Positions 10,606 to 35,106 of a DNA stretch of 35,319 nucleotides are shown piece after piece. This DNA comes from Halocafeteria seosinensis (lineage: Eukaryota > Sar > Bigyra > Bicosoecida). Below the pieces are notes generated by a model. That model ran no database searches. It was not told where the DNA came from and was given only the letters and a program-made list of their open reading frames with translations. A program made the position numbers and the translations under genes. Every line of letters begins with the position of its first letter. The stretch's first letter is position 1. The stretch covers positions 1-35,319 of the forward strand of contig LVLI01000378.1 in assembly GCA_001687465.1 (NCBI GenBank), given 5' to 3'.

Positions 10606-13005
10606 TCAAAGGGGATTAGCTGGTGGTTTTTGCCTCAACTCTCCTCCTTCTTTTGTGGCTCTCCTCAAATCTGCGAGGATGTCTTTTGAAGATTTTCCAG
10701 ACGCTTCGACTCGTTTCATTTGTCCATCATTCATTTGAGGTGGAATACTTTGGCTGATCGAGTAGAAGCGAAGTCCGACCTTTCCGGTAGTTCTTCCACC
10801 TATTCCATATTTGCTCAGTGATCCATCCGCTACGGCTTTGGCATGAATATCTCGAGGGATTCCGCTCAAAGACTCATCAGAGATGAGATTCCCTGCATCG
10901 AGGCCTGCAGAGGCTCCGAGGAACCAATGTCTCAGTTGCTCCCGGATGCTGGTTTGTGGGGACCATGCGTCAAGTTGTGGAGCTTCGCTGCCAACCGCTC
11001 GAGGAAACTTATAGTAGGTGTACCCCACAGGTGTGTAGTGTCCGTCGCTATCAGTTGCAAATACGGTGATATACAGTATTGGCATCGAGGACGAGGCGAT
11101 CATCCCAGGTACTACTTGGGCATCCAGACCACACTCACCCTGCATGGCAATGTCGTCTTGAGAAGGATCCCATATCAGAGAAAATTGTACTGGATAGCAG
11201 TATTGAGCAACTGCCGTAGGCTCTTCTGTATTCGGAGACGAATCAGGGCCGGCAAGTGTTGTACCTTGTTCTGTATAGTCTACCCACCTCCATTTGCGTC
11301 TAACAGTGTTGCAAATCTGCGTATAGCCCTCATTTCCTTGCTCGAGATGCTCTCGCTTCCATCCTCCCCCTGGAGGTGTCCAAAGTTCCCAATGAACGAA
11401 CATGGAGTCACTATCAAAGTCCCACGCTGCCACGATTTCTGCGAAGACCGTAAGCCTGATGGAAGGAATACCGCTTTCTGCATCTATGGTTGGGGGTGGT
11501 GTGAAACTCCAAGCAATCCGATTTCTCTTTTCCTCCACCGCTAAGCGGTCCCTGCAATTTACGTTTCAGAATGATTTGACATATTCTGCTCTTAGGGGCA
11601 GTGGATGCTTACCTCTTCTCTATTCCGCTCATAGCAGACGCTTCCAAGGCCGCACGCGCTGCCGGGTGAGGCAGGGATACAGCTTGAGCAGAATTAAATG
11701 CATTTTGGATCATAAATTGAAATGTCGAACCCTGGAAAAACCATAGAAGGTTAGGGATAAAGTGCACGTGTTTTGATAGGAGTAACGTACTTGGCTTGTT
11801 CGAAAATAGTAAGTAGAGCAGTTATGAGTGAGAGCATCTCCGAACGCTACAAGCACCGGATCCATTCCCGTCGTTTCAGTCTTTTTACTGGATATTCTCG
11901 ATGTATCATAGTCTAACAATGTCCACACTTGTTCCGCTACCTGCTCCCGCTCAAGCGACGTGTGCTTGTTTTGGCTCGACTTAAACTTTTCAACCTCCTC
12001 TGACAGCACGCCCAGAGCAGATGACTGGACTGAGAATCCCGGCACCATTTCCAACAGCTGCTCTTCCGGTTTGGCTCTAAGAAATGCAAGCGGTATATGA
12101 TAGAGTGACTGCTCGATCTTTCCTTCTAGAAGCGCTTGCTTATCGGTGCATACAGCTGCTAAGATATACATCACGGTAGAATCATATTCACGCCTCCTGT
12201 TTGGGTTTGGTGTGGCGTCATATAATTCGCTGGTAGAAATAGCACCTATGCTCTCTGTGTTATCCGTCTTCAACGGATTGAGCTTCTGTTGGAGTAAGCC
12301 TTCATTAATATTGTCGCGATGAGTCATGGAGTATATATGGATCTTAGGCATACGTGACAGCTCCTTGCGTATCACAGAGGGAGATAGTTTTTGGAAAAAC
12401 TGTTCATAGGACCCAGCACTGGCCTGTTTCATTGCATGCTCGGATCCTTTTTCTTCCCCCGGACTCGGAAATGCGTCTTTGGCGTACATCACCACTTCCC
12501 TGTACAAAGACAATTGCATGGGCAAACATGGGCACTAAATACAGTGAACGTGTCAGGAGACTTACTGCGGTCCAAACCTCTTTTGCTGCCATTTAATATC
12601 TATCACTTGCATCATATTCTCGGCATTCTCTCCAAATGCTCCAGACGAGTCGATTCCCGTACCAACATGTGCGGCGTCTTGTATAGCTGTTTTCAGAGAA
12701 TCGATTGCACTCTTGGCTGCCTCTGATTCCTCCTCCGTGTCGCTTCTCTCTGGGGTTGAGCCGGAATGAGTGCTCTCCTGCGAGTCGCTGTCTTCTTCGC
12801 TCTCTTCTTGTCGGCTCCGTTGCTGTTGTCTAGTCTTCCTACGAATTCTACCGGGAGAGGATTCAGTTGTTGGTGTAGAGGGCGATTGCATCTGTGAAAC
12901 ATTCTCTCTCCCCAGTTTTGTCTGTCTAAGAGTCACCCTTAGAACCAAGTCATGAATTGGATCGTGCAGACGATAGTACGCTGGTGAAGCCTGGTCCATG
13001 ATCAA
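10606..13005 (-). CDS. MKS1: MKS1, B9-domain ciliary transition-zone protein
   Basis: Four exons on the minus strand (13005-12566, 12499-11791, 11731-11613, 11551-10606), with introns of 66, 59 and 61 nt, join in phase to 737 residues. The N-terminus YYRLHDPIHDLVLRVTL matches the human MKS1 start (VYRSRDPVRNLRLRVHL). KWQQKRFGPQEV corresponds to GWQEKLFSQFEV, and KIHIYSMTHRD to RIFTYTDSDRY. The B9 domain, a C2-like fold, spans about residues 449-690: VFAEIVAAWDFDSDSMFVHW, GYTQIC, PVGYTYYKFP, LRHWFLGAS, SKYGIGGRTTGKVGLRFY. An acidic low-complexity insert lies at about residues 40-105, which helps explain the length (human 559). In other organisms MKS1 works with B9D1 and B9D2 in the transition-zone gate at the base of the cilium. 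The stop nearly abuts the TPR gene; the 5' end faces L11 across 491 bp. Confidence 0.92.
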
Positions 13006-17481: not shown

Positions 17482-19707
17482 ATGCTAATGATCACTGGCA
17501 ACGGGCCACATACCTCCAATCTACGCATGTTAACATGTCTTTTCCTGGGACTCTTCTGTGCTATTTGTCGTGAATCATCTTTTGCAATTGCAGACAGTCG
17601 GAATCCTCTCCAGGAGTATGTGAAATGGTAAGTACATGTTTCTCCTAATCAAAGCACAAATCACAGAGGTTGACAGAGCTGGCCTCGCCTACGTGCAGGC
17701 TGAAATACAATGGAGCAAACCTGAGCGCCCTGAACTTCCATGTGGATGAGGGGGCAGCGAGAATTGTCCTATCAAAGGATATCGACGCGAACGAGACTTT
17801 TTTGGAAATACCTGGGGAATTATGCTTAAGCTCCGTCAGCGCGTTGATGCACCCACTGATGGGAGCAGCACTAGAAAAAGCGTATCGAACGAGCCCCCCT
17901 GTGGAATCGTCCAAAGGGTTAAGCAAGCTCGTTGCAAACGTGCATTATGTAAGGTGCATTTCTTACCGATGTTTAAAAATGTATAGGTATAATTCCTTTC
18001 TTAGTTCAACTCCTCCAGGAAGCCTTTTATTCAAAACAATCAGTATTCGACCCGTGGTTGAGGTTGCTGTCGTACGCTCACTTGTTGCACCCCCTCTTCT
18101 ATAGCGAGAAGGAGAAACACGTCTTCTTATTGAATAGCTCTTATTTCAATCCCGATATATCATCAGCGGCTAACCAAGGTTTGAATGACTCCCTTTGAAA
18201 CTCTTTTTTCAGCTTGTAAGAGATATCTCAATCGCAGGAATTTCTACGTTTTCTTCGACTATCAATGAGAAAATGAAAGTAATTAGCAGGGAAAAGGATG
18301 CCGTCTCCTCCTTTGTCGTGCGTGAAGTAATCATTCCCCTCTCGAAGGAAGAAGGTAAACGAGGAATGACTCTGACTTACGGCAACGTGCGAAACCGCGA
18401 TGTACAAGCGCGGCTACTGCAAGAACTCAAGTGGGCCTATGTGATTACAAAAATGAAGCACCAGATCTTCGAAGTTAGGACGCTAGCGAACAGTGGAATC
18501 ACGCCGTCCTCCGGAAACCAAGCTTTTATGATTCCACTGCTTGATATGTTTGTGTTACCAAAGAGGAAAAGTAGGCGCTCAACGCACTAGGTATTCATGC
18601 AAGTTCGAGTAACGTTCCTCGTTTGCTATTACAGATTTCACACGGCCTCAAATGCGACTGATGCCAGAACGTAACATGAACAAGAGGTGCTTAGAACAGT
18701 TCTCTTGGAATCCGGACAGCAAAGCAAGGTGCGCGTTACAGTACCCTTCTCAGCGCTCTCATTCCAACTTGCAATTCACCCTCGCAAGTAAAATGTAAGG
18801 AGAACAGGAATTTGCTGTTGGAGCTTCTTAAAGGATTTTCTTATTCTACTCACAGCTCCAGAAAGTCGACCACAAACCCAGAGGTGGGCTTCTTCCGCAC
18901 CAATGTTGTGCCTTGTGCCTTAGATTTACTTCTCGAGTAAGGAAACATAGCGGGACGCTACTGGAGTTACCAAGGCTAGCGCAATTTTTCTCTGCAGCTA
19001 TGGGACGGTCAATCCTGTTGGGCTCCACAACTGCGCCTATGTGACACTCAATACTTCATCACTGCTGCTAAGAAGCCCCAAGCATCTCTTTGAGCTCCAA
19101 ACTAAGACATTAGAGGACCTCGTAAGAAAAAAATGGAGATAACCAATGATGAAATTAGTGTTAACACGTTTTGGAATTACAGAAACTCATTCAGCTGGTG
19201 TCCTCAAGGCTGCACGTAACCTTGATCTGGGAGGAACCGCTGGATTCTCGCCTTTTCCGAACGATACGAGTGCTTGTAGCAGAGGAAGAGGAAATAAGGT
19301 ATGCTCAGAGTTCATCGCACACTATCCTTGTCATCAGCACCAACGAAGAATATATAAAATGCAGGGAGGTGACCAGACTAGGCGGAGACTGGGGCTCTCC
19401 TATTTCGCTAATGAACGAGCTGAAGTGCCTCAGATTTCTGCTGGAAGCACTGCAACATGAAAAAGTAAGGGAGTATGAATCCTACCTGGCAGCGAAAAGG
19501 CACTGTCGATCGACTTCGAACGAGATGCAGAACTTGCTCACCTCAGCTAGAATGCGCGTCGCTGAGGAGAGTGGTTGGCAGGACAAAAAGAACATGAATT
19601 TAGTACAGATAGATACGATACATTCTGGTGCAGTGGAAACACTCCAGCGAAGTGTGAGTTGGCTGACCAAGCGTTGGGTAGACTTCCTTTACGCTCCAGG
19701 ACTGTAA
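17482..19707 (+). CDS. SET-domain protein 1 of cluster (Rubisco-LSMT type), degenerate active site
   Basis: Nine exons (17482-17627, 17699-17948, 18019-18178, 18238-18570, 18635-18728, 18856-18936, 18998-19121, 19183-19298, 19365-19707) join in phase to 548 residues; a second ATG at 17527 would give 533. After it comes a strong signal sequence, MLTCLFLGLFCAI. Splice sites were chosen by matching the two paralogues downstream: the HY/EAFY junction, the 81-nt exon and the YG junction are shared. The family motifs have decayed. The SET start GGW is replaced by GAA, SRA after the helix WAY is KMK, the NH pair after PLLDM is VL, and the catalytic Tyr segment reads FFRTN. Methyltransferase activity is therefore unlikely. 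The C-terminal helical part matches the LSMT substrate-binding domain of the neighbours. A sequon NET lies in the DANETFLEIP strand. Its stop is 6 bp from that of SET gene 2. Exon ends near 18570-18856 are the least certain. Confidence 0.78.
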
Positions 19708-19713
19708 TATCCC

Positions 19714-21912
19714 TCAAAATTCGGTGCCGCTCCCCACTCTGAGAAATGACATCCAGTATTCATCGAGTAGTTCGAGACCTTTGGTACATGCCGCAATCAT
19801 ACCCCGTTGGACAATCAGAAGATTATGCCGGGAATATGTCGCTCGCAGTGACTCCTCAGAGAACTGCTGCAAGGCTACACTTATCGATCGTCTCAAGCGT
19901 TGGCGCGTCAAGAGCAAACCATTTTGAAGGTCTACAAGAGCCGAATACTCGTTTCTCATGTTCACTACTTCACTAATGTTAATGTTGTACATTTCACTGA
20001 AAGCAGCAGGACGATCAAAATTAGCACATTAAGGGAGAGGGGGACCAGTTCGATATGATTCTTACCTAAGATCCCGAAACAGGATATGTTTTAAACGGAA
20101 GAGCCTAAGGACATCGGATGATAGCGTCGTATCAGACATGCATATGTTGCCGATACTCCTCAGCTCTTTGTATTCAGTATCGTCGTCAAAAAGAGCCTTC
20201 TTCAATTTGCCCAAAGTAGAACCCGCAAAAGAGATATTGGCATCAACTGGGAAACACACTCTGTCCTGCTCATTCGTCACAAATCCGTAGCTGCAGTGCG
20301 CCAGAGAGGTACAATTATGGATACTGTGCATTGTACGTCACCGCTTTCTTACGTATTCAAGAGGTGGTGATCTTCCCTTTTCTGATCCGTGCCATCGTAC
20401 GAGAGTTCTATTGAATCACCCGCAGAAAGATCTCTGTTGCAGAGCGGTGGAAAATATAAGCCAAGGTGTTTCCAATCAGAAAATCTTGTTCCAGGCGGAC
20501 TTACATGTCAGTTCTGTAAACGTAGGATGTAACTTCTCTGGTGTTCTGTTTCTCGATCGATTTGGTGGTAGTGCGTAGTCCAGGCCGAGCAGAATGATGA
20601 TTCATCAGTTGAGCGATAGGAACGAGGACTCCTGCGCCGGATGAACGCTTGCTGAAGCGATTCCGAATTATTTGATCGTCTGGTTCTTACCTTTGTCACC
20701 TTTAAATCTTGGTCCATGAGCCCGACTTTGTATCATATTTACTGCCCAATGAACCTCCTTTCGAACCCTGGAATGCACATACTTTCAATCTTGTAATATT
20801 CGCTAGTGATTTAAGTGTTAAACTTATCGAGGAGTTTCTCACCTTCGAAACACGTCAGGTGATTCGACGTTTCCATAAATATCCGGTCTGGAGCTCAGAA
20901 GATGCTGAATGAGGATTTTCACGGTTTTATCTGCGTCCATGGCTTTGCCTGATCCATTAATCAGTGCATCATTAGGATGGTACAACATTGCATACCCTTT
21001 AAGGATATCTGTCTAGAGAACACACCCGTAGCTTCGTCCAATAGATCCAGTAACTTTGCGTCGTCTCCTGAATAATAGGAGGGAACAGCAGGGGACTGGG
21101 GCAACGTAGCTATAAATGCCTTCCATGGAGAAGTTAGGAAATTATAAAATGCCTCCTGCATACGTCGTATAAATAGACGAAGTGCATTCAGTCCATGTCG
21201 GGAAGCCATACATACGTAGTGTAGCAAGAGGATCATCCCATTTAAAGCTCCAATCCTAGCAGAGTCAAAATTTTTGATCTTTTGGATCCCCATGCGATAT
21301 AATGGCCCGACGACAGGATGTGTGGTCGCATTGCTTCCGTGTATGCACAAGCGTCGAGGGACTTCGAAGACCACTTGGCCCTTCTTCACTGGTCGGGTAG
21401 ACACTAATTCCCATCCACCGAAAGCGTCCCTCTCCGGCTTTACTGAAGACACATCTGCTCCTAAATTCCTCACTCTGCGGTAGAAGTGAGTAAAAGCACG
21501 ACTGGAGTACCCTTCATATTGCAGTTGCGGATACCTACTCTTCGAATAAGTTCTTAAGCGCATCCTCGGCTGTCATATAACTCCATGGTCCGGTCGATGG
21601 AGGTTCGACAGCTGCAATCCCTGTTGCATGTCGAGCAGAAGGAATTTCATTGCTGCTGTAGACCAACAGAAGCGGAAGTATTGAAGAAGATACGACAATA
21701 TGCAAAGAGGAATCCAAATTGTGTGTGTGTACGTACTGTGTGTTAGTGCTGGAGCTGGTGCGATGGATCGCGGAATCTTGTTGCTGCTCGTGGATCCCCC
21801 GTTGCCTATGGGTAGAACTAGTTTTGTTGATAATTGCCCTTACGAAACACAACTCCGACGAAGCGCTCCATACTATCAACAAGAGGAATGCGTTGACCCG
21901 GTTCTTGTTCAT
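19714..21912 (-). CDS. SET-domain protein 2 of cluster (Rubisco-LSMT type), intact catalytic motifs
   Basis: Nine exons on the minus strand (21912-21539, 21474-21216, 21155-21026, 20948-20843, 20767-20691, 20631-20505, 20433-20353, 20290-20066, 19996-19714) join in phase to 553 residues. The first in-frame ATG gives the hydrophobic leader MNKNRVNAFLLLIVW. SET landmarks in order are AFGGWELVS, FEVPRRL, LLLHY, WAVNMIQSRAHGP, LVPIAQLMNHH (NH near 326-327), GDSIELSY (Tyr near 370) and LLNTYGFV. The LSMT substrate-binding part follows to the C-terminus. The family methylates lysine (or histidine, as SETD3 does) on non-histone proteins. A SNAT sequon lies after the IHG strand. The first 125 residues are long compared with the paralogues, so an unrecognised intron in exon 1 is possible. 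The substrate is unknown; a signal peptide implies entry to the secretory route, or a complex plastid if the organism has one. Confidence 0.86.
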
Positions 21913-22291
21913 GATGCGTTCACAAACTCCAATTTTGATATATAAGGACGAGTACGGCAAACTACATCAATAAATTATAAAGTACAGCATCTCCATACTT
22001 CCTGTTAGACGAGAAACTGACTATTACGTTTGTGGAACTACGTGGGAGGTGTAATCCAAGTTGATTATCAAACACTGATGCTCAACTTCACAAGGAGCTT
22101 CGTGCAATGCATCACATGGGTTATCATTGTTCAAGTTCGTAAACAGTTTAACTTATCGACTACTTTTGTCACTCGTGTCCCATTAAAGGGCCCTTATTCA
22201 CTCATATGATTTCCACGCTGTTGCAGATGAGTGACCAGTGGGGTTCAAAGGCACGGTGCCCCTCCTCCCGCGGTGTGCACATTTCCCGTGA
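21913..22291. other. Gap between SET genes 2 and 3
   Basis: A 379-bp stretch upstream of SET gene 2 and downstream of SET gene 3, both on the minus strand. No gene is seen. It must contain the promoter of gene 2 and the 3' UTR of gene 3. Confidence 0.4.
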
Positions 22292-24365
22292 TTAGCTCTT
22301 CTCATCGCCCAGCAAGGACATCCAGTGTTCCCTGACTACGTTCTGAGCGTTCTGTGCTGCTGATATTATGCTTTTATGTACGGCCAGCATTGTTCTTTGA
22401 GGAGACGAAAGTGCGCTGGATTGCTCACTAAGGAACTCCATCGTTTTGTTTAGCGCTAGTTGTTCGCGATACAATGTAAACTGAGCAACTCGATACACCA
22501 GATTTAGCGCTTTCTGTTCGTTATCAACGCTTATAATTTTGTGATGATCTATGGAGTCCCTAGACCTGTATACATCGATAGAAGACAGTTAAAGGACGAA
22601 TGCTTGGTGGCTATAACTTAGAACTTACTCCAAGTCCGCAACTCCAAGGTTCATCAGTCTAACGACCTCTAGCAGCCGAATCGGAATTCTCGTATCAGAC
22701 AAGCAAAAAGGAAAGTCCTGTTGGTTTGTCTTCATCAAACCTACTTTGTACACTAATTGCGAACGGAATTCTTCTATCATTCCGCTTTTAGAAGTGTCTC
22801 CTAGCCGGATGGTCACAGGGAAGCACTGCCTGTTCTCTTCTCCTGTTATGAAACCGTACCTGGAGTATTTTCAGCAGTGACAATGCAAGCCGGGAGATCT
22901 ACGTTGTACGGGCAGTACTTGAGACGTACGTGTTAAGCATGTGCAAATCTGACTTGGCGCCTTCTCCACTATTGTAGGAGGTGTGAATGAAGTCCCCCTT
23001 CCTCAAGTGCCTGTCATTTGAGGCATGTCGGTGAGCTAAACAAATTGGTGGATACCTCATCTGCATACGTACGCAGAACTGGTATGGGTGTAGGAGAGTA
23101 AAGTGATTGTGCCATCGTCGTTCTGTTTCGCCGTTCCGCCTATGGCTTCCGTATGAGTATGATGGTTCATTAGTATGGCAATTGGGACCAACGCCGCTGA
23201 GAAATGCACACACTTCCGCTACTAGCTTCAATCGCTACCAGTGTGCGACATCAGTGCGTACCTTTGTCTCCTTTGAAACGAGGTCCATGTGCGCGAGTGG
23301 AAGCAACACTGACAGCCCAGGAGACCTCTCTTTTCAGCCTGCGAGAATGTGAGCAAGGGCGTCGCGAGAACGAAATGGCATTGCAATTGTCCCCTTTACC
23401 TTGTAACCACCTCATCGTTCTTTATGTCACCATATATGTCGGGACGCTCGGAGAGGACGTTGTACACTATGGCATCTACTGTCAACTCTGCCAAGCAATA
23501 TGTTTCAGTCTGATTCGAACAGTGGAGGGAGGTATGGAACTTGTTCACGTACTATGCCCCTGGGCACTTTCCCCGTACTTCCCGTTTGATTCATTTAGAA
23601 TGTCCCTAACCACTGCATCGTTTCCTTTGTAGTAGAACGGCGTGGGGAACCTCCGGGGAAGCGTTAGCAGGAATGGCCTCCAGAATGACTTCTTTAAATT
23701 ATAGAACATTTCCTGAGAAACAGTTCAATAAATAGACGGAAACTGTATTACATCCGAACGAATGTGGAGCTCGTATTCTCTTACATAATGAAGAAGTAAG
23801 ATGATTCCGTTCAACGATGATTCTTGATCATCTTCAAAGTTGATAATGAAACTGTATCAGTAGAACAGCTTGTAGTAGAGGTAACTTCCATTGTCCTCTT
23901 TTAGACATACCTTGTGGCATGGGAAAATAGCGATTTCACTACCGGATGGCTTGTGACATTCGTGCCGTGAATTGACAAGGAAACTGGAATCTCCAGTAAA
24001 GTTGTATTGGCTTGTGAATCTTGTTTAGAAATCAGATCCCAACCCCCATATCCGTCTCGGATATATGTTACACCTGAAATCTTTGCGCCGTGTGCCTCAG
24101 CCCTGGATGTAGAAGTGCTACCAAAGTAAGGCTTTACCTCAGGGCGACACACGAGATATAGCGCTCACCACTCGAACAAGTTTTTCATGTTTTCCTCTGA
24201 AGCTGCATCGTCATTAACCCAGCAGGTCTCAGGCTCTGGTGAGTTTGGAGGCTCTGTATGTATCTCTTTTGTGTTAACCGCGACAGCATTTGTAAAGACT
24301 GGTAGTTTTGCGCTGACGACCCAAAGTATGGCAAAGGGCCACCAGAACCGAAAGAGCATTCGCAT
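22292..24365 (-). CDS. SET-domain protein 3 of cluster (Rubisco-LSMT type), intact catalytic motifs
   Basis: Ten exons on the minus strand (24365-24169, 24102-23911, 23851-23785, 23712-23568, 23487-23400, 23338-23262, 23196-23073, 23010-22930, 22859-22629, 22565-22292) join in phase to 491 residues. The ATG at 24365 gives MRMLFRFWWPFAILWVVSA, a strong signal sequence. SET landmarks are GYGGWDLIS, LLEIPVSL, LLLHY, WAVSVASTRAHGPRFKG, LVPIAILMNHH (NH near 266-267), KGDFIHTSY (Tyr near 309) and LNTYGF. The LSMT substrate-binding region ends in REHWMSLLGDE, like EYWMSFL in gene 2. Sequons NTT and NVT lie in the N-terminal SET strands; the second sits where gene 2 has NAT. It has one intron (23852-23910) that gene 2 lacks. 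The donor at 23567 (GTGCCC) is weak, and its choice rests on alignment with gene 2. Confidence 0.84.
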
Positions 24366-24794: not shown

Positions 24795-27355
24795 ATGGCA
24801 GCTACTGGCAACCACCCTTCATCTCAAGAAGCTCGTGAAGGGAATAAATTGGATAAGGATCTATCGGAGACCGCCAATACCAACCAGCACCAATCTCATG
24901 AACACGAAGAAATTAACCAAGCAGCATCACAGGAGGGTACAGACGCCAAGGAGAAGCGAAACTACATGACAGGTGAGTGAATGCTTACGGCGATGAATGA
25001 AAAATAATGTTAATAGGGGGATAATAACTGCGAACGCAGAATGGCAAGCGCGTCGGAAACACTTTCTGATCCTGTCGGAGCACGGCTTGCCCATTTTTTC
25101 AAGGTATGCCAATTTTCAGTGATACGACGGTATGGCTGCTGATGGATTCCTGTCACTTATACTGAAACCAGATATGAAGATGAAGAAGAGAATCAAGCAA
25201 ACATAGCTGGTTACATCAAAGGCCTCCTATCTAAGACTGAGAGCATTGGCGACGAGTTTCGGTAAGGACGATGGTGGCGATCTCTGCGTCCCAACCTCCA
25301 TTGGTCACTAGAATCGCTATACAGATTCATGGATTGTGGCAATGTCAGATTCGTGATCTTAAGAGAGAATAATTTGATCTTTGCGTGTATCACGAGAACA
25401 GGAGAAACTGTTACTTCGCTCTGTAGACAACTCAAGGCACTGAATGGGGTTATTGTTTGTACAGTATCTGCGGCCGTAAGTAAAATGCTGCTCAAATAGG
25501 ATGGGCTTATCTTTTATCGCAATCGCGACACATAATTGCTCATGCAGCCCTTTCAAGATAGTACATTGTTAGCTGTTGGAGATGATCTGGTGATCGCGGA
25601 GAGACCTTTACGCTATTGCATTCGGGCACTGAACCGAACACCCTCCTTTATGTGTAATTCCGTACCTATTTTGCCGGTTCCAACGACAACAAGGCAACTA
25701 GCCAAAGATTGTCTCAGTCCATGTGAGGGCTCAAAGCAGCTTCTGTAAGTTTTCCGTGTGCATTTTTGGCTACTTCTCGACGATACTGTCTAGGTTAGTT
25801 TTCAGGTGGGGCGCATTAGTGGCAGGGAATGAACTCATATCCTTTCGACGCGGAAATGCCAGGGCCGAGAGCTTAGTGCACGCGTTTGATCTTTTGACAG
25901 TGGTAACCTTTATCCAGTCGCAGTCAACCATTTACGCGGGGAACGCTACTCTTCCGTGCTGGTTTCCGTGCCAGAACCCTTTCGAGTATGTTTTCATGAG
26001 TAGACATTATGTTTCCCCTTTCCAATTTACCATAACTTTTTTCCAGCAATGTTCATGCGTTTGTTGGCTATCTGGGTTCTCTTCCACGGCACGCGGGTCG
26101 CACCAGTGTGCCCACATCGATCCGCAAGCAATCTCAGCAAGGCGATTCTGACGAGGCATCATCTCGAACTACTGGGCAAGAGATGGTTAGTCCGAAAGGG
26201 AATTCGCCTGTTAACGGGGCAGACGGGGGTGACAATGAATCTAGGAGGCGCAATCCCCATCCACACTTGAAATCGATGCGCCCTCATGCTATAAAGAAGC
26301 ACGAAAAGTCTATTAGTTCCGCCACCAACCGGGACGCTCTTCACTGCATAGAGGATGCGGAGAATGAAATTAGCTTAATCGCAAAAAAGAACAATGCGTT
26401 CCCTAACCCTACAGAAGATGGGACATCGTATTACTCAACGGATTCCCAAAGTGCCAATTCTGAAGATAGGGAGAAGATTCAAGCCTTGGATAGCAGGGAA
26501 ACCCCAGCAGCAAACGAATCCGAAGACTTAAGTAAGGATGGCAGATATATGGGCTCTGCGTATAGCCACAAAAGCCTTATGAACAAAAAAAGTCGCACTG
26601 ACGTTCGGTATCACGACAACTTACTAGACGACGTCTTAGTGATTCTAATTACCGAGGGTAACCACGCCGAGGCAATATCCGCTACGGCGAAACTAAAAGA
26701 TAAAATTGAAGATGTAAGTCTCTTCTTCTTTTTTCTTGACAAACGTAAAGACATTGGAAGTTGTTTATGATTATCAGAAAATCTACTCAAGCAAATTGGT
26801 GAATGGTATAGCTTCGTACGTAACCGAGAAAGGACTAGACTGCAGCCGCTACGATATTCCGGGACTGCTTCACTTTGTGTAAGTGTATACACACTGCTTC
26901 TCTTTCCTTAGTATGACTACAGGCTTTTCTTTGTTATAAAAACAGGTTCATGGATTTGAAGACACATCAATTCGTCCAGTCAATGTTCCCAAGGCAGTTC
27001 CGTGCGCATAGATGGAGAAAATGGTATGCTCGTAACCCGTCCGTAGAGTGAAGTGGATTCGATACATTGCTTGTGTTTCGTCTTTCCCAGGTTATTACGT
27101 AGGTATGATAGAGTTTATGAACGTCTCACATCGGAACCGAAGACAGTCCAGTGTGTCGCTGATGACACGAGTGAGCTTCCGCTTATCGTATCAGGTTGCA
27201 CTAGTGACAATTTCCTCGTGCTCGCGTCTTTTTCTTCGGAGAAGATACACAGACAGGACAACATTGGATGCATACCTAGAAAACTGAAGGGTCTGATAAA
27301 GTATTTGCGAGAAGGTAGCCGTAGCTTTTTCCTTAGCGATCAACGTTTTTCATGA
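24795..27355 (+). CDS. MON1: MON1, vacuolar/endosomal fusion factor (Rab7 GEF subunit)
   Basis: Ten exons (24795-24972, 25040-25103, 25172-25261, 25325-25475, 25548-25744, 25794-25985, 26047-26713, 26778-26878, 26946-27023, 27091-27355) join in phase to 660 residues. Introns are 49-72 nt; the 49-nt one (25745-25793) is the shortest seen here. The first longin-type region shows the MON1 signature ARRKHFLILSEHGLPIFSRY, then VRFVILRENNLIFACITRTG and RTPSFM. The middle part has GALVAGNELISFRR and CWFPCQNPFDNVHAFVGYL. The C-terminal part has IPGLLHFVFMDLKTHQFV and a terminal strand-helix ending RSFFLSDQ. A hydrophilic insert of about 190 residues (about 312-505) lies inside exon 7. MON1 with CCZ1 activates Rab7 on late endosomes and vacuoles. 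The last 16 bases of coding sequence overlap the deaminase-like gene on the opposite strand. Confidence 0.92.
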
Positions 27356-29052
27356 CATGCGGATAGCAACCCCATCTCTAGGGATACACAGCCCATTTTT
27401 CTGGAGGGAGTCCGGCTTGAGAGTCTCAGTCCTTCGTGGCAGGAATAATAAATGTTAGCAATCCCTAAACGAATGAGCCCCATGTTGCACATGGCACACG
27501 GAACTGCTTCTTCGTAGCCGACTCCTATGCCATCAAGTTCCACCACCCAGCAGTGGGCTCCCTGCAACGGTACATCAGCAGGGACGGAGCTACTGCGCAG
27601 ATGGCTTGACATGAGCGCTCTCACGGCAGCATGAATTTCACTGTGCATAACATGCTTTTGCGTAGAGGGAGACTGTGCGGTAGAGGTTTTCTGTCGCTTA
27701 GCTGGTTGCTTAAAAGTTGTATCTCTGCGGCTATCATCGCTTTGGCAACACATTGACATAGTCTCACTGTTGGCCGCCCTTTCCTGAGCTTCCTTTAGCT
27801 CAGCATCAGTAACGTGAGTCACATGATTTTGTCCGAAAGAGAAGAGGCGGTTTTTACTCACGTACACTCCGGAACTCTCCGCTTGTAGATCAGCGGGAAA
27901 GTATAGCTCTTGGTGGTCTTTCGGTGGCTCTACTGGGCTCAAGGGCACAACAATTACTGCTCCGTGCTTTGAGCCTTTTTGGTCACCAAGCCTAGCGCAT
28001 TCAGCAGCCCGAAGAAAGCAATATTCCCCTGTTCCTGGTTTGGGGTTTAGAGCACTCTTCACATCTTCCTCATGTAATATCCCCAGCGCTGCTGCTTCTC
28101 TCATCAGTTCCGGCTGACAAATATATACAAGATGCTTGTACAAATCATTGGCATTGTGTAAGTCGTTGTGCACACTCTGGTGCAGTTTCTGTACTGCAGT
28201 CTTTCCTTTATCCACGTGCCTGGACTTAACCGATGACGCAAATAGAAGCAAATAGCTGCGGGCATTCGGCTGATACTCCTTGGGGAAGTCTTCCGAATCA
28301 CAGAACGCATTCCACCTGTCAATGACGGAGTCTATAAAATTGGTCTTCCTGCTGTCACTCAGGTGTCCCGTTGCAGTTTGCTTCGCCACTGCAATGACAT
28401 CTTTCTTAGCGAGCCCTCCGTGCGGACGGTCTCGGATAAACTCTTCAAGGCGGTCGTTACCATAGACTGGTAGTTGTAAACACGAAGATGACGTGAGCGT
28501 TCTCTCCATGTGCTTTTCGCATAGGTCATTAAGGGATAACTGGGCTTCGCCTCTTGTGATAATGTCTTCTTCAGATGATATTTCGGCGTTTCCAGAATCT
28601 GGTGAGCTCTGGTGTAACGCCTCCAGTCCCTTGATGCATGTGAGTACGGGCAATGACGGCAACCACTGATCATTATTCAGTCTGCCACCTATGGATTGTG
28701 CTACATATTGAATGCTCTCGCTGGCTTCCGTAGGAAGCTCAAGTTTCTGGTTCGTCAGACCAGAGACACGCTTACACGCGGATTCCAAATGAGCACAGGT
28801 TATGATGCCGATAGAGGTTTCGTCCATTTTGTAGACTGACTTCAGTATCGCATTTAAGTCGGCGGCGGTCATGGTTTGCTTGTGTAGTGCTCGTCGCGCC
28901 AGCAGGGTCAGGGCAATTTCATGATGAAAACTGTAGGCCAAATGCTGCATTGCTACTGTAAAAGGACGGTGTGGAGCGAAGACACACAAGTTCAGCAGGG
29001 TATCGAGCGCGTTGGCCGACTGTGGTTGAATAAACTTGGGTAGCTTTCCCAT
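27340..29052 (-). CDS. Cytidine-deaminase-fold protein with long unknown N-terminal region
   Basis: A single frame. A longer version from a GTG at 29139 exists, but the first ATG is at 29052, giving 570 residues. The C-terminal 200 residues show the zinc-dependent deaminase pattern: CARLGDQKGSKHGAVIV near 350-370, HSEIHAA near 470 (zinc His and proton-shuttle Glu), and PCAMCNMGLIRLGIANIYYS near 518-537 (two zinc cysteines). This places it with the CMP/dCMP and tRNA-editing (ADAT) deaminases. The substrate cannot be told. The order of motifs and the insert of about 90 residues before HSE are unlike a plain ADAT2 or dCMP deaminase. The N-terminal 350 residues are mostly helical and not recognised. 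A tRNA adenosine deaminase subunit is one possibility. Its stop lies inside the last exon of MON1. Confidence 0.8.
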   Translation of the reverse strand: MGKLPKFIQPQSANALDTLLNLCVFAPHRPFTVAMQHLAYSFHHEIALTLLARRALHKQTMTAADLNAILKSVYKMDETSIGIITCAHLESACKRVSGLTNQKLELPTEASESIQYVAQSIGGRLNNDQWLPSLPVLTCIKGLEALHQSSPDSGNAEISSEEDIITRGEAQLSLNDLCEKHMERTLTSSSCLQLPVYGNDRLEEFIRDRPHGGLAKKDVIAVAKQTATGHLSDSRKTNFIDSVIDRWNAFCDSEDFPKEYQPNARSYLLLFASSVKSRHVDKGKTAVQKLHQSVHNDLHNANDLYKHLVYICQPELMREAAALGILHEEDVKSALNPKPGTGEYCFLRAAECARLGDQKGSKHGAVIVVPLSPVEPPKDHQELYFPADLQAESSGVYVSKNRLFSFGQNHVTHVTDAELKEAQERAANSETMSMCCQSDDSRRDTTFKQPAKRQKTSTAQSPSTQKHVMHSEIHAAVRALMSSHLRSSSVPADVPLQGAHCWVVELDGIGVGYEEAVPCAMCNMGLIRLGIANIYYSCHEGLRLSSRTPSRKMGCVSLEMGLLSACHEKR

Positions 29053-29763
29053 CTCTATCGCACCAAAATCCCCGTGTATACTCCTGTGTGGCTTTGCCAC
29101 AGTGCGTTGCTCCCACGAAATGTTCGGTTCCCCATCCACGCTGCTTCACACAGACGCCGGCATGGACATTGACCGAAGGTATATCTTATTTAATGGACAT
29201 GAAGTGCGTGTATATCGATACGCAGTCTGTGAATGCCTATTAGCAATCCGCGAGTTGTACGAACAAACCAATAGAGGAAGAGCAACTTCGCCCGCCGTGG
29301 GTGGAACATTCTCGTAGTGAGCGTCGAACAAACCAACGCCCCGTTGCGAATTGCCATCACCTACAGACGCTGCACTAGTGGACAAATTGGGTGTATTGTT
29401 CCAATAGAACTATTTTAACGGGAATGAGACTTCATATTTAGCGTGTCATTGGGTTCTTAGAAAACGTGCTAGAGCAAGGCCTTTTTCTGTCGCAAACAGC
29501 GGGCAGATTACGTGTTAAATTCCAATCAACGGAGCTGCGTAGACCACTTTTCTGAGTAGAAAGAAAGAGAAGTCATAGTACAGATAAAGAGTGAACCAAG
29601 CGTTACGCTCAGAAAGCGTAAACTATAATAGATCGAGGTGTGTATGTAGGCTGGCCCAGAGGTTTTCGGGTTGAACTTGATCGTTCCTATCCTTTGCTTG
29701 GAAAATACTGCCGCACAAGGTAACAGTGGGACAAAGTAGGGAAGACAAGAGCAAAAATACAAA
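29053..29763. other. Divergent intergenic region, 711 bp
   Basis: This region lies between the starts of the deaminase-like gene and the 431-residue gene. It contains a short ATG frame at 29162-29317 (51 residues, plus strand) that cannot be assigned. The rest shows no supported gene and should hold both promoters. Confidence 0.4.
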
Positions 29764-32733: not shown

Positions 32734-33250
32734 TTAAAGGACTGCGAGCTCAGCTAAGCTATCCCGCGGGACCGATTCCGGGTCTGACGGTCGGTGCTCA
32801 TCTAGCGCCAAGTTCGCTTGGTGATCCGCCTCCTGGTTCCTACTCCTCGGCAAGAATTCCCATGTTATCTCCATATGGGTGCCAGAGCTGATTTCCTCGA
32901 TCCGCCTCCACGTTTCGTGAAGAGAGCGGCTATTAATCCGTTTATTCCCATTGATCTGTCCTCCATATGGGTGCCAGAGCTGATTTCCTCGATCCACCTC
33001 CACTTTTCGTGAAGAGAGCGCTTATTAATCCGTTTATTCCCATTGATGTTGACCATTCTCCGCAACGTAGCTCAGTCCCAGTTGGAGCGCAGCAATGGCC
33101 GCTCCGTATTCCACCTCATTGTTCGTGGCCCGGCCAATGAACTCCTTCTGCGAACCAACATATTCCTCACCAGCTTACTTGATAGCGTAGATAACGACAC
33201 CTGTTGCTGCCGGCCCCGCGATGCGCCATCGAAGTACGCCATGATTTGCC
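32734..33250 (-). pseudogene. Broken RNase HI domain of a retroelement
   Basis: The minus strand carries the RNase HI motifs in the right order but in several frames. MAYFDGASRG (first catalytic Asp) lies near 33219-33246, NNEVEYGAAIAALQLG (catalytic Glu) near 33080-33125, and the C-terminal RSRNQEADHQANLA near 32795-32840. A frame change follows the first motif. An in-frame stop separates it from the second, and another stop follows QLGLSYV. A 92-bp tandem duplication (32869-33046) then repeats part of the domain out of frame. RNase HI domains of this type occur in many LTR and non-LTR elements of protists. It is clearly non-functional. Confidence 0.75.
32869..33046. repeat. 92-bp direct tandem duplication inside the RNase H remnant
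   Basis: Unit 1 begins at 32869 and unit 2 at 32961, both starting CTCCATATGGGTGCCAGAG. The second unit is complete to about 33046. Only a few substitutions separate them (for example CGCCTCCACG versus CACCTCCACT). A period of 92 is not a multiple of three, so it shifts the reading frame. Confidence 0.9.
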
Positions 33251-34637: not shown

Positions 34638-34709
34638 TCTCTGGTAGTATAGCGGTTAGTATTCCCGCCTGTCGAGCGGGGGACCGGGGTTCGACTCCCC
34701 GCCAGAGAG
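34638..34709 (+). tRNA. tRNA-Asp (anticodon GTC)
   Basis: A complete cloverleaf of 72 nt. The acceptor stem TCTCTGG pairs with CCAGAGA, with G as discriminator. The D arm is GTAT-AGCGGTTA-GTAT, and the anticodon stem CCCGC/GCGGG encloses loop CTGTCGA with anticodon GTC. The T arm is CGGGG-TTCGACT-CCCCG. There is no intron and no encoded CCA. The A- and B-box promoter sequences are intact (B box GGTTCGACTCC). A reverse-transcriptase fragment starts about 30 bp downstream. Confidence 0.96.
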
Positions 34710-34728
34710 CGGTTCGTCTCTTAAACGA

Positions 34729-34733
34729 TTTTT
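34729..34733 (+). terminator. RNA polymerase III terminator of tRNA-Asp
   Basis: A run of five T residues begins 20 nt after the tRNA 3' end, as expected for Pol III termination. Confidence 0.65.
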
Positions 34734-34737
34734 CTCG

Positions 34738-35106
34738 GGTATCCAGTTTGGCGCTGGAGTTAAGGGTGGCCTTGAGGCGGTTATACATTCTTGTCGACAG
34801 GCTTTCAGGGAATGTTGCGGCGTTTTGCAGATCGACTGCAAGAATGCCTTCAATTGCGTCTCTCGACGGCATGTGGCCAATGTTGTCAGTCGCGAATTCC
34901 CTTCGTTGTCTCGTTACTTTGCCTGGGCCTATGGAGGCGATACTCCTCTGCTATATCGGATGGTGGAACTGGACGCGATTTGTAGAATCTTGCAGCGTGC
35001 TCTTCGGGAGCTCAAGATTCCCATTGATGTGGAGCATCCTGTTGAAGGTGGCGTCATGGATATTGTGGCTCACGGGGACACCAGTGATTCGTTGATTAAT
35101 TATTAA
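34738..35106 (+). pseudogene. Truncated reverse-transcriptase fragment (non-LTR type)
   Basis: The frame reads QFGAGVKGGLEAVIHSCRQA, then VLQIDCKNAFNCVSRRHVAN, REFPSLSRYFAWAYG and TPLLY. The D-x-K-x-A-F-x-x-V segment is RT motif A with its metal-binding Asp; the preceding GVKGG-E-A-VI/VH block and the following FP...WAYG block are usual for non-LTR (LINE-type) polymerases. Similarity stops near 34975, before the QGDPLG and Y-A-D-D motifs, so the polymerase core is incomplete. The frame ends in an AT-rich repeat. It begins almost directly after the tRNA-Asp gene. Confidence 0.65.

Follow-up and report, generated by a model that had tools for sequence, protein, structure and literature searches.

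SETD3/LSMT-class SET-domain genes with N-terminal leaders in the bicosoecid Halocafeteria seosinensis: a probable old triplication with likely entry into the secretory pathway

Known SET proteins of the LSMT/SETD3 class reside in the cytosol, the nucleus or plastids. SETD3, an actin-histidine N-methyltransferase (PDB 6v62, 3smt), modifies actin in the cytosol and is not known to carry a signal peptide; Rubisco LSMT (PDB 1mlv, 2h21) is an enzyme of the plastid stroma, and PAP7/pTAC14 (PDB 8qma) is a SET protein associated with the plastid RNA polymerase. Here we describe three adjacent genes of this class, A, B and C, whose products begin with hydrophobic leaders, in the bicosoecid Halocafeteria seosinensis. 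They occupy positions 17482-24365 of contig LVLI01000378.1 (C274 in our numbering of the genome's 605 contigs, 30,592,128 bases), all 35,319 nucleotides of which were analysed and are called the window below. We read them, with about an even chance of being right, as an old triplicated family of leader-bearing SETD3/LSMT-class proteins that would be routed to the endoplasmic reticulum (ER) and secretory pathway, in which B and C would bind and may methylate their targets and A is probably non-catalytic.

The gene models were obtained by reading both strands and by splice modelling, and the final models were corrected with homology and with a transcriptome protein, P0005. All three genes are complete and multi-exonic, no internal stops were left in the final models, and 26/26 introns are of the GT-AG type with lengths of 59-81 nt. 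Gene A (17482/17527-19707, forward strand) encodes 555 residues from the ATG at 17527 in nine exons (17527-17627, 17699-17948, 18019-18178, 18238-18570, 18635-18794, 18856-18936, 18998-19121, 19183-19298 and 19365-19707); the ATG at 17482 is an in-frame upstream start, 15 residues ahead of the leader, which runs from 17527. Besides the model itself, A has a domain match and a match to the profile of B and C. Gene B (21912-19714, reverse strand) encodes 530 residues in ten exons (21912-21737, 21655-21539, 21474-21216, 21155-20996, 20930-20843, 20767-20691, 20631-20505, 20433-20353, 20290-20066 and 19996-19714), with P0005 in its support. Gene C (24365-22292, reverse strand) encodes 496 residues, also in ten exons (24365-24169, 24102-23911, 23851-23785, 23712-23553, 23487-23400, 23338-23262, 23196-23073, 23010-22930, 22859-22629 and 22565-22292), and is backed by a SETD3 match and by introns in common with B. 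An earlier note on this DNA had described three adjacent SET paralogues, two on one strand and one opposing, and the coordinates and strands of the complete models verify that arrangement; a further gene D elsewhere in the genome, the introns in common and an intron-retaining transcript of B lay beyond its view.

The Pfam evidence for the class was weak: the SET domain reached 17.5 bits in B (cut-off 22.4), and Rubis-subs-bind passed in A at 29.0 bits, fell below its cut-off of 21.6 in C (19.5 bits) and gave no match in B. The profile of B and C matched SETD3 best among solved structures (E = 9.9e-10) and also pea LSMT (1.1e-6), with which it has the split SET fold and probably the substrate-binding domain in common; it further matched, at E = 2e-16, an alignment of P0001-P0004, the relatives that D had retrieved. 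Gene A matched the same profile along almost its whole length, residues 24-551 of 555 (E = 2.5e-9, probability 96.2). These Pfam and profile searches used the final models, and the single-protein searches of the PDB and the genome with A, B and C used earlier ones. In the latter, C alone again had SETD3 as its best solved match (9.7e-8, residues 52-451), B alone matched LSMT (3.3e-4), and A alone reached only a non-significant 0.39, to SETD3. PAP7/pTAC14 was not among the PDB matches of A, B, C or the B and C profile. Two structure predictions were unusable, with mean predicted local distance difference test values of 47.0 and 38.9. The profile matches support placing A, B and C in the LSMT/SETD3 class, and the Rubisco-LSMT type first proposed for them is borne out in this wider form.

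A strongly hydrophobic leader on each protein, as the earlier note had seen, was verified. Leaders were scored with a von Heijne-type eukaryotic weight matrix (columns sum to 161; usual cut-off 3.5), and their hydropathy was taken as the best 11-residue Kyte-Doolittle mean. The leader of A (17527-17592, forward strand; MLTCLFLGLFCAICRESSFAIA) scored 7.98 with a hydropathy of 2.76, that of B (21835-21912, reverse strand; MNKNRVNAFLLLIVWSASSELCFVRA) 7.07 and 2.18, and that of C (24309-24365, reverse strand; MRMLFRFWWPFAILWVVSA) 2.45 and 1.94. Gene D also passed the cut-off (5.11); C falls below it and cannot be credited with a cleavable signal on this score. The matrix alone is unspecific, since P0002, probably a cytosolic relative, scores 3.77, yet its hydropathy is 1.12. 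When a score of at least 3.5 and a hydropathy of at least 1.6 were required together, 62/595 first-ATG open reading frames (ORFs) of 35-199 codons passed, and 1/38 of those with at least 200 codons; both sets include the window and the SET loci. No second 19-residue window exceeded a hydropathy of 1.3.

RNA support was obtained for B. P0005, a EukProt protein (record GECG01012006.1, from what we take to be the H. seosinensis transcriptome) found with an exon-sized B query among 39 candidates, opens with the leader of B, which thereby has RNA support; no RNA was seen for A or C. Introns 1 and 2 of B are spliced in P0005 exactly as in the model made before P0005 was seen, and the corrected model is identical to it over residues 1-237, where intron 3 and the next exon agree by construction. 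The fourth intron (20931-20995, reverse strand; 65 nt) is retained in P0005 and leads to a stop at residue 248, which could reflect regulated splicing or an immature transcript. The full-length B protein of an earlier model matched 0/7,996 scored candidates, a set restricted to at least 0.55 of the length of B and hence without intron-split fragments, and a scan of viral contigs with a B exon gave no confirmed relative. That an ER-type leader is unusual for the LSMT/SETD3 class, as had been argued, is accepted on the class locations given above, and entry of A, B and C into the secretory pathway appears likely.

The introns bear on the age of the cluster. In the alignment, B and C are 35.7% identical, A and B 24.6%, and A and C 22.7%. 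All three genes have introns at columns 98 (phase 2), 185 (phase 0), 405 (phase 2) and 432 (phase 2), a fifth of phase 1 lies one column apart (240 in A, 241 in B and C), and 8/9 introns are common to B and C. In each gene the column 98 intron lies between the 5′ part, which bears the leader, and the SET domain; B has one extra 5′ intron. Where several splice sites were possible, chiefly in A, some were picked by reference to the paralogs, which makes this agreement not fully independent. The common positions, among them the one that separates the leader exon from the SET domain, make it probable that one leader-bearing gene gave rise to the cluster by an old triplication, and on the simplest reading the 5′ part and its leader would predate the duplications.

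The catalytic motifs are unevenly preserved. At the GxG position SETD3 has GFG, whereas B has GWE (aligned with LSMT) and C has GWD (aligned with SETD3), and both carry leaders, which SETD3 is not known to have; A has GAR in a non-significant alignment with SETD3, and all three were read from earlier models. B and C retain the Asn-His pair (LMNHH), the tyrosines in SY and YGF and the arginine of SRA/TRA. In A the Asn-His position reads LLDMFVLP and YGF is replaced by YGT, and D retains SRAF, LNH, HY and YFGF. Judged by the motifs lost and kept, A is likely a non-catalytic pseudo-enzyme, the catalytic competence of B and C is uncertain, and that of D is plausible. The earlier label of lysine methyltransferases holds in part: the Asn-His pair and both tyrosines of B and C agree with it, and the loss of Asn-His in A and of the second glycine of GxG in all three does not. 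The lysine part is weakened further because SETD3, the nearest solved relative of B and C, is a histidine methyltransferase.

In the reading we prefer, an ancestral leader-bearing SET gene would have triplicated to leave A opposing B and C, and the N-terminal leader would route the products into the ER and secretory pathway. The most likely role of B and C there would be to bind side chains on proteins of the lumen or the endomembranes, which they may also methylate, and A would be a diverged, probably non-catalytic relative that has kept a recognisable substrate-binding domain. Targeting, topology, a lumenal supply of S-adenosylmethionine (SAM), substrates and any catalysis are what we infer in this scheme. 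Several results weigh against it. The leader of C scores only 2.45; the second glycine of GxG is Glu in B, Asp in C and Arg in A; and the sole B transcript seen keeps intron 4 and would give a 248-residue product without the Asn-His and tyrosine half of the SET domain. No KDEL/HDEL-type C-terminus was found, the ends of A-D being LYAPGL, GSGTEF, LGDEKS and DHVNKA. Finally, the mature proteins are not strongly acidic: with assumed cleavage sites, Asp and Glu make up 10.5-13.9% of A, B, C and D, and the net charges are +11, +4, -9 and -10, respectively. Proteins released into brine are expected to be more acidic, an expectation uncalibrated for H. seosinensis, and the weak acidity therefore favours an internal endomembrane role over release. 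Of the suggestion that the products act in the secretory pathway or are secreted, the first half is thus made likely by the leaders, and the second stays unproven.

The leaders may instead be uncleaved anchors, in which case the products would be enzymes or scaffolds tethered to the ER or endomembranes, with a SET domain that is lumenal or, for A, possibly cytosolic. We regard this as unlikely, although it deserves serious attention. The low cleavage score of C beside a clear hydrophobic stretch fits an anchor, and in A the short start without positive charge ahead of the leader leaves the orientation open. Against it stand the good predicted cleavage sites of A, B and D. Basic residues before a hydrophobic core place the C-terminus in the lumen by the positive-inside rule, and Lys/Arg ahead of the core in B, C and D accordingly favours a lumenal C-terminus.

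It is also rather unlikely, in our judgement, that the cluster is largely decayed, with A a pseudo-enzyme, B and C losing or having lost activity and serving at most as binders, and the leader a remnant or an acquisition of moderate effect. The damaged GxG of all three genes, the lost Asn-His of A and the retained intron of the known B transcript point that way. However, all three genes keep an open frame of 496-555 codons, their introns are ordinary, and neutral decay would be unlikely to spare the Asn-His pair, the SRA/TRA arginine and both tyrosines of B and C.

B, C and D might also be active enzymes that, in a brine-dwelling cell, methylate Lys or His on proteins of the endomembranes or on exported ones, while A would be a non-catalytic partner that holds the substrate. 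Such active lumenal methylation would require import of SAM into the lumen. We marked this possibility down because the sole B transcript seen is truncated, and consider it doubtful.

It is improbable that A and C owe their leaders to chance open frames and have other true first exons. No RNA was seen for A, C or D, and leader-like starts do occur among short ORFs at the frequency given above; nevertheless, the final pre-SET exon ends at the identical splice position and phase (column 98) in A, B and C, the leader of B is present in a transcript, and the start ATG of D lies one codon after an in-frame stop, where a further 5′ exon is possible.

The location of LSMT in plastids contrasts with the lack of plastid genes in our searches of H. 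seosinensis. LHC, GcpE and DXR gave no match in an exon-by-exon genome search, which can miss split genes and makes their absence only suggestive, and HMG-CoA reductase is present in the genome. The proviso of the earlier note, that the organism has no complex plastid, agrees with these searches, and plastid targeting of A, B and C is unlikely. It is very improbable that the leaders are bipartite signals directing the proteins to a cryptic complex plastid: 13 Ser/Thr among the 40 post-leader residues of B and the PAP7/pTAC14 match of D would favour this, but the post-leader part of C, with 2 basic and 8 acidic residues, and that of A, with 3 Ser/Thr, are unlike transit peptides, the searches just described speak against a plastid, and bicosoecids are classed as apparently plastid-less in a published report (PMC6723347). 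A plant-parasite effector reading was dropped, the organism being a free-living bicosoecid and the literature search giving no support.

With regard to novelty, bacterial SET effectors are exported by injection systems and are not a tandem family of the LSMT/SETD3 class. They would resemble the products described here, should these be secreted, in that they leave the producing cell (reviews on host chromatin in infection: PMC12914800, PMC12937675). A search of the open-licence literature found no description of a leader-bearing or secreted SET family of this kind and nothing pairing Halocafeteria with the SET domain; the main text of PMC5447177 does not contain the term 'SET domain'. What emerges is a leader-bearing SETD3/LSMT-class family, at least one member of which is probably dead, in a halophilic protist in which our searches showed no plastid genes. 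The suggestion of an undescribed system is retained as far as that literature goes, and has to be qualified in that the SET class is a known one and neither the lysine methyltransferase label nor secretion was borne out as stated. If true, the preferred reading would mean that proteins are methylated, or recognised by SET domains, inside the secretory lumen, or else that the SET fold has been recruited to a new compartment.

Gene D, the other leader-bearing LSMT-type gene, is unlinked to the window (L036:2367-4494, contig C141:278366-280493) and encodes 645 residues in four exons. Its best solved match is PAP7/pTAC14 (3.5e-14), from which it differs by its ER-type leader, with LSMT at 7.9e-13. 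P0001, from an ENA contig, shows 57% identity with D across 62% of D, lacks the N-terminal part and reads through the intron at the same place. In the genome, B, C and A matched only their own contig (12, 13 and 9 rows), and the matches of D were its own locus (4 rows), C6 (5.8e-5), C52 (1.7e-4), C539 (0.006) and C512 (0.028); C382 (E = 0.204) was dropped. A profile search gave 18 matches to PF00856 and 3 to PF09273, counts that are lower bounds because neither search listed the intron-split genes A, B and C. At least nine LSMT-type genes are thus present (A, B, C, D, C186, C512, C539, C6 and C52), where C186 comes from the PF09273 search, C539 and C512 also exceed a Pfam cut-off, and C6 and C52 were recognised by their match to D and by eye. 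The leader cut-off was passed by 3/8 of those scored (A, B and D), C512 being excluded with its start not modelled; C186 scored -4.84, C539 -5.37, C6 -5.77 and C52 -1.98, from starts without an RNA check. Long single-exon SET genes at L039, L043 and L046 (contigs C328, C182 and C422), TPR-like and MYND-like (SMYD-type) by eye, are perhaps a lineage expansion.

As for the organism, published reports give a growth optimum of 15% salt, with division at 30% and none below 7.5% (PMC5447177), the genome accession LVLI00000000 (PMC6972860), and ectABC genes with introns, together with ectA-/ectC-related sequences in at least six other protists (PMC5796728). We found two intron-split ectoine synthase genes as exon-sized pieces (C33:55312-55779 and C93:18298-18788). 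Within the window, a B9-C2 ciliary basal-body protein (10609-11565, reverse strand; 73 bits) indicates that the organism has or had cilia. A long ORF at 27346-29145 (reverse strand) has a C-terminal deaminase match of 17.5 bits (cut-off 25) and resembles an ADAT3-type tRNA deaminase by eye, and at 34638-35103 (forward strand) a tRNA-Asp lies directly 5′ of an ORF that is reverse-transcriptase-like by eye, with no Pfam match at E 0.01. A 92-bp tandem unit is repeated in 1.9 copies, 95% alike, at 32869-33047.

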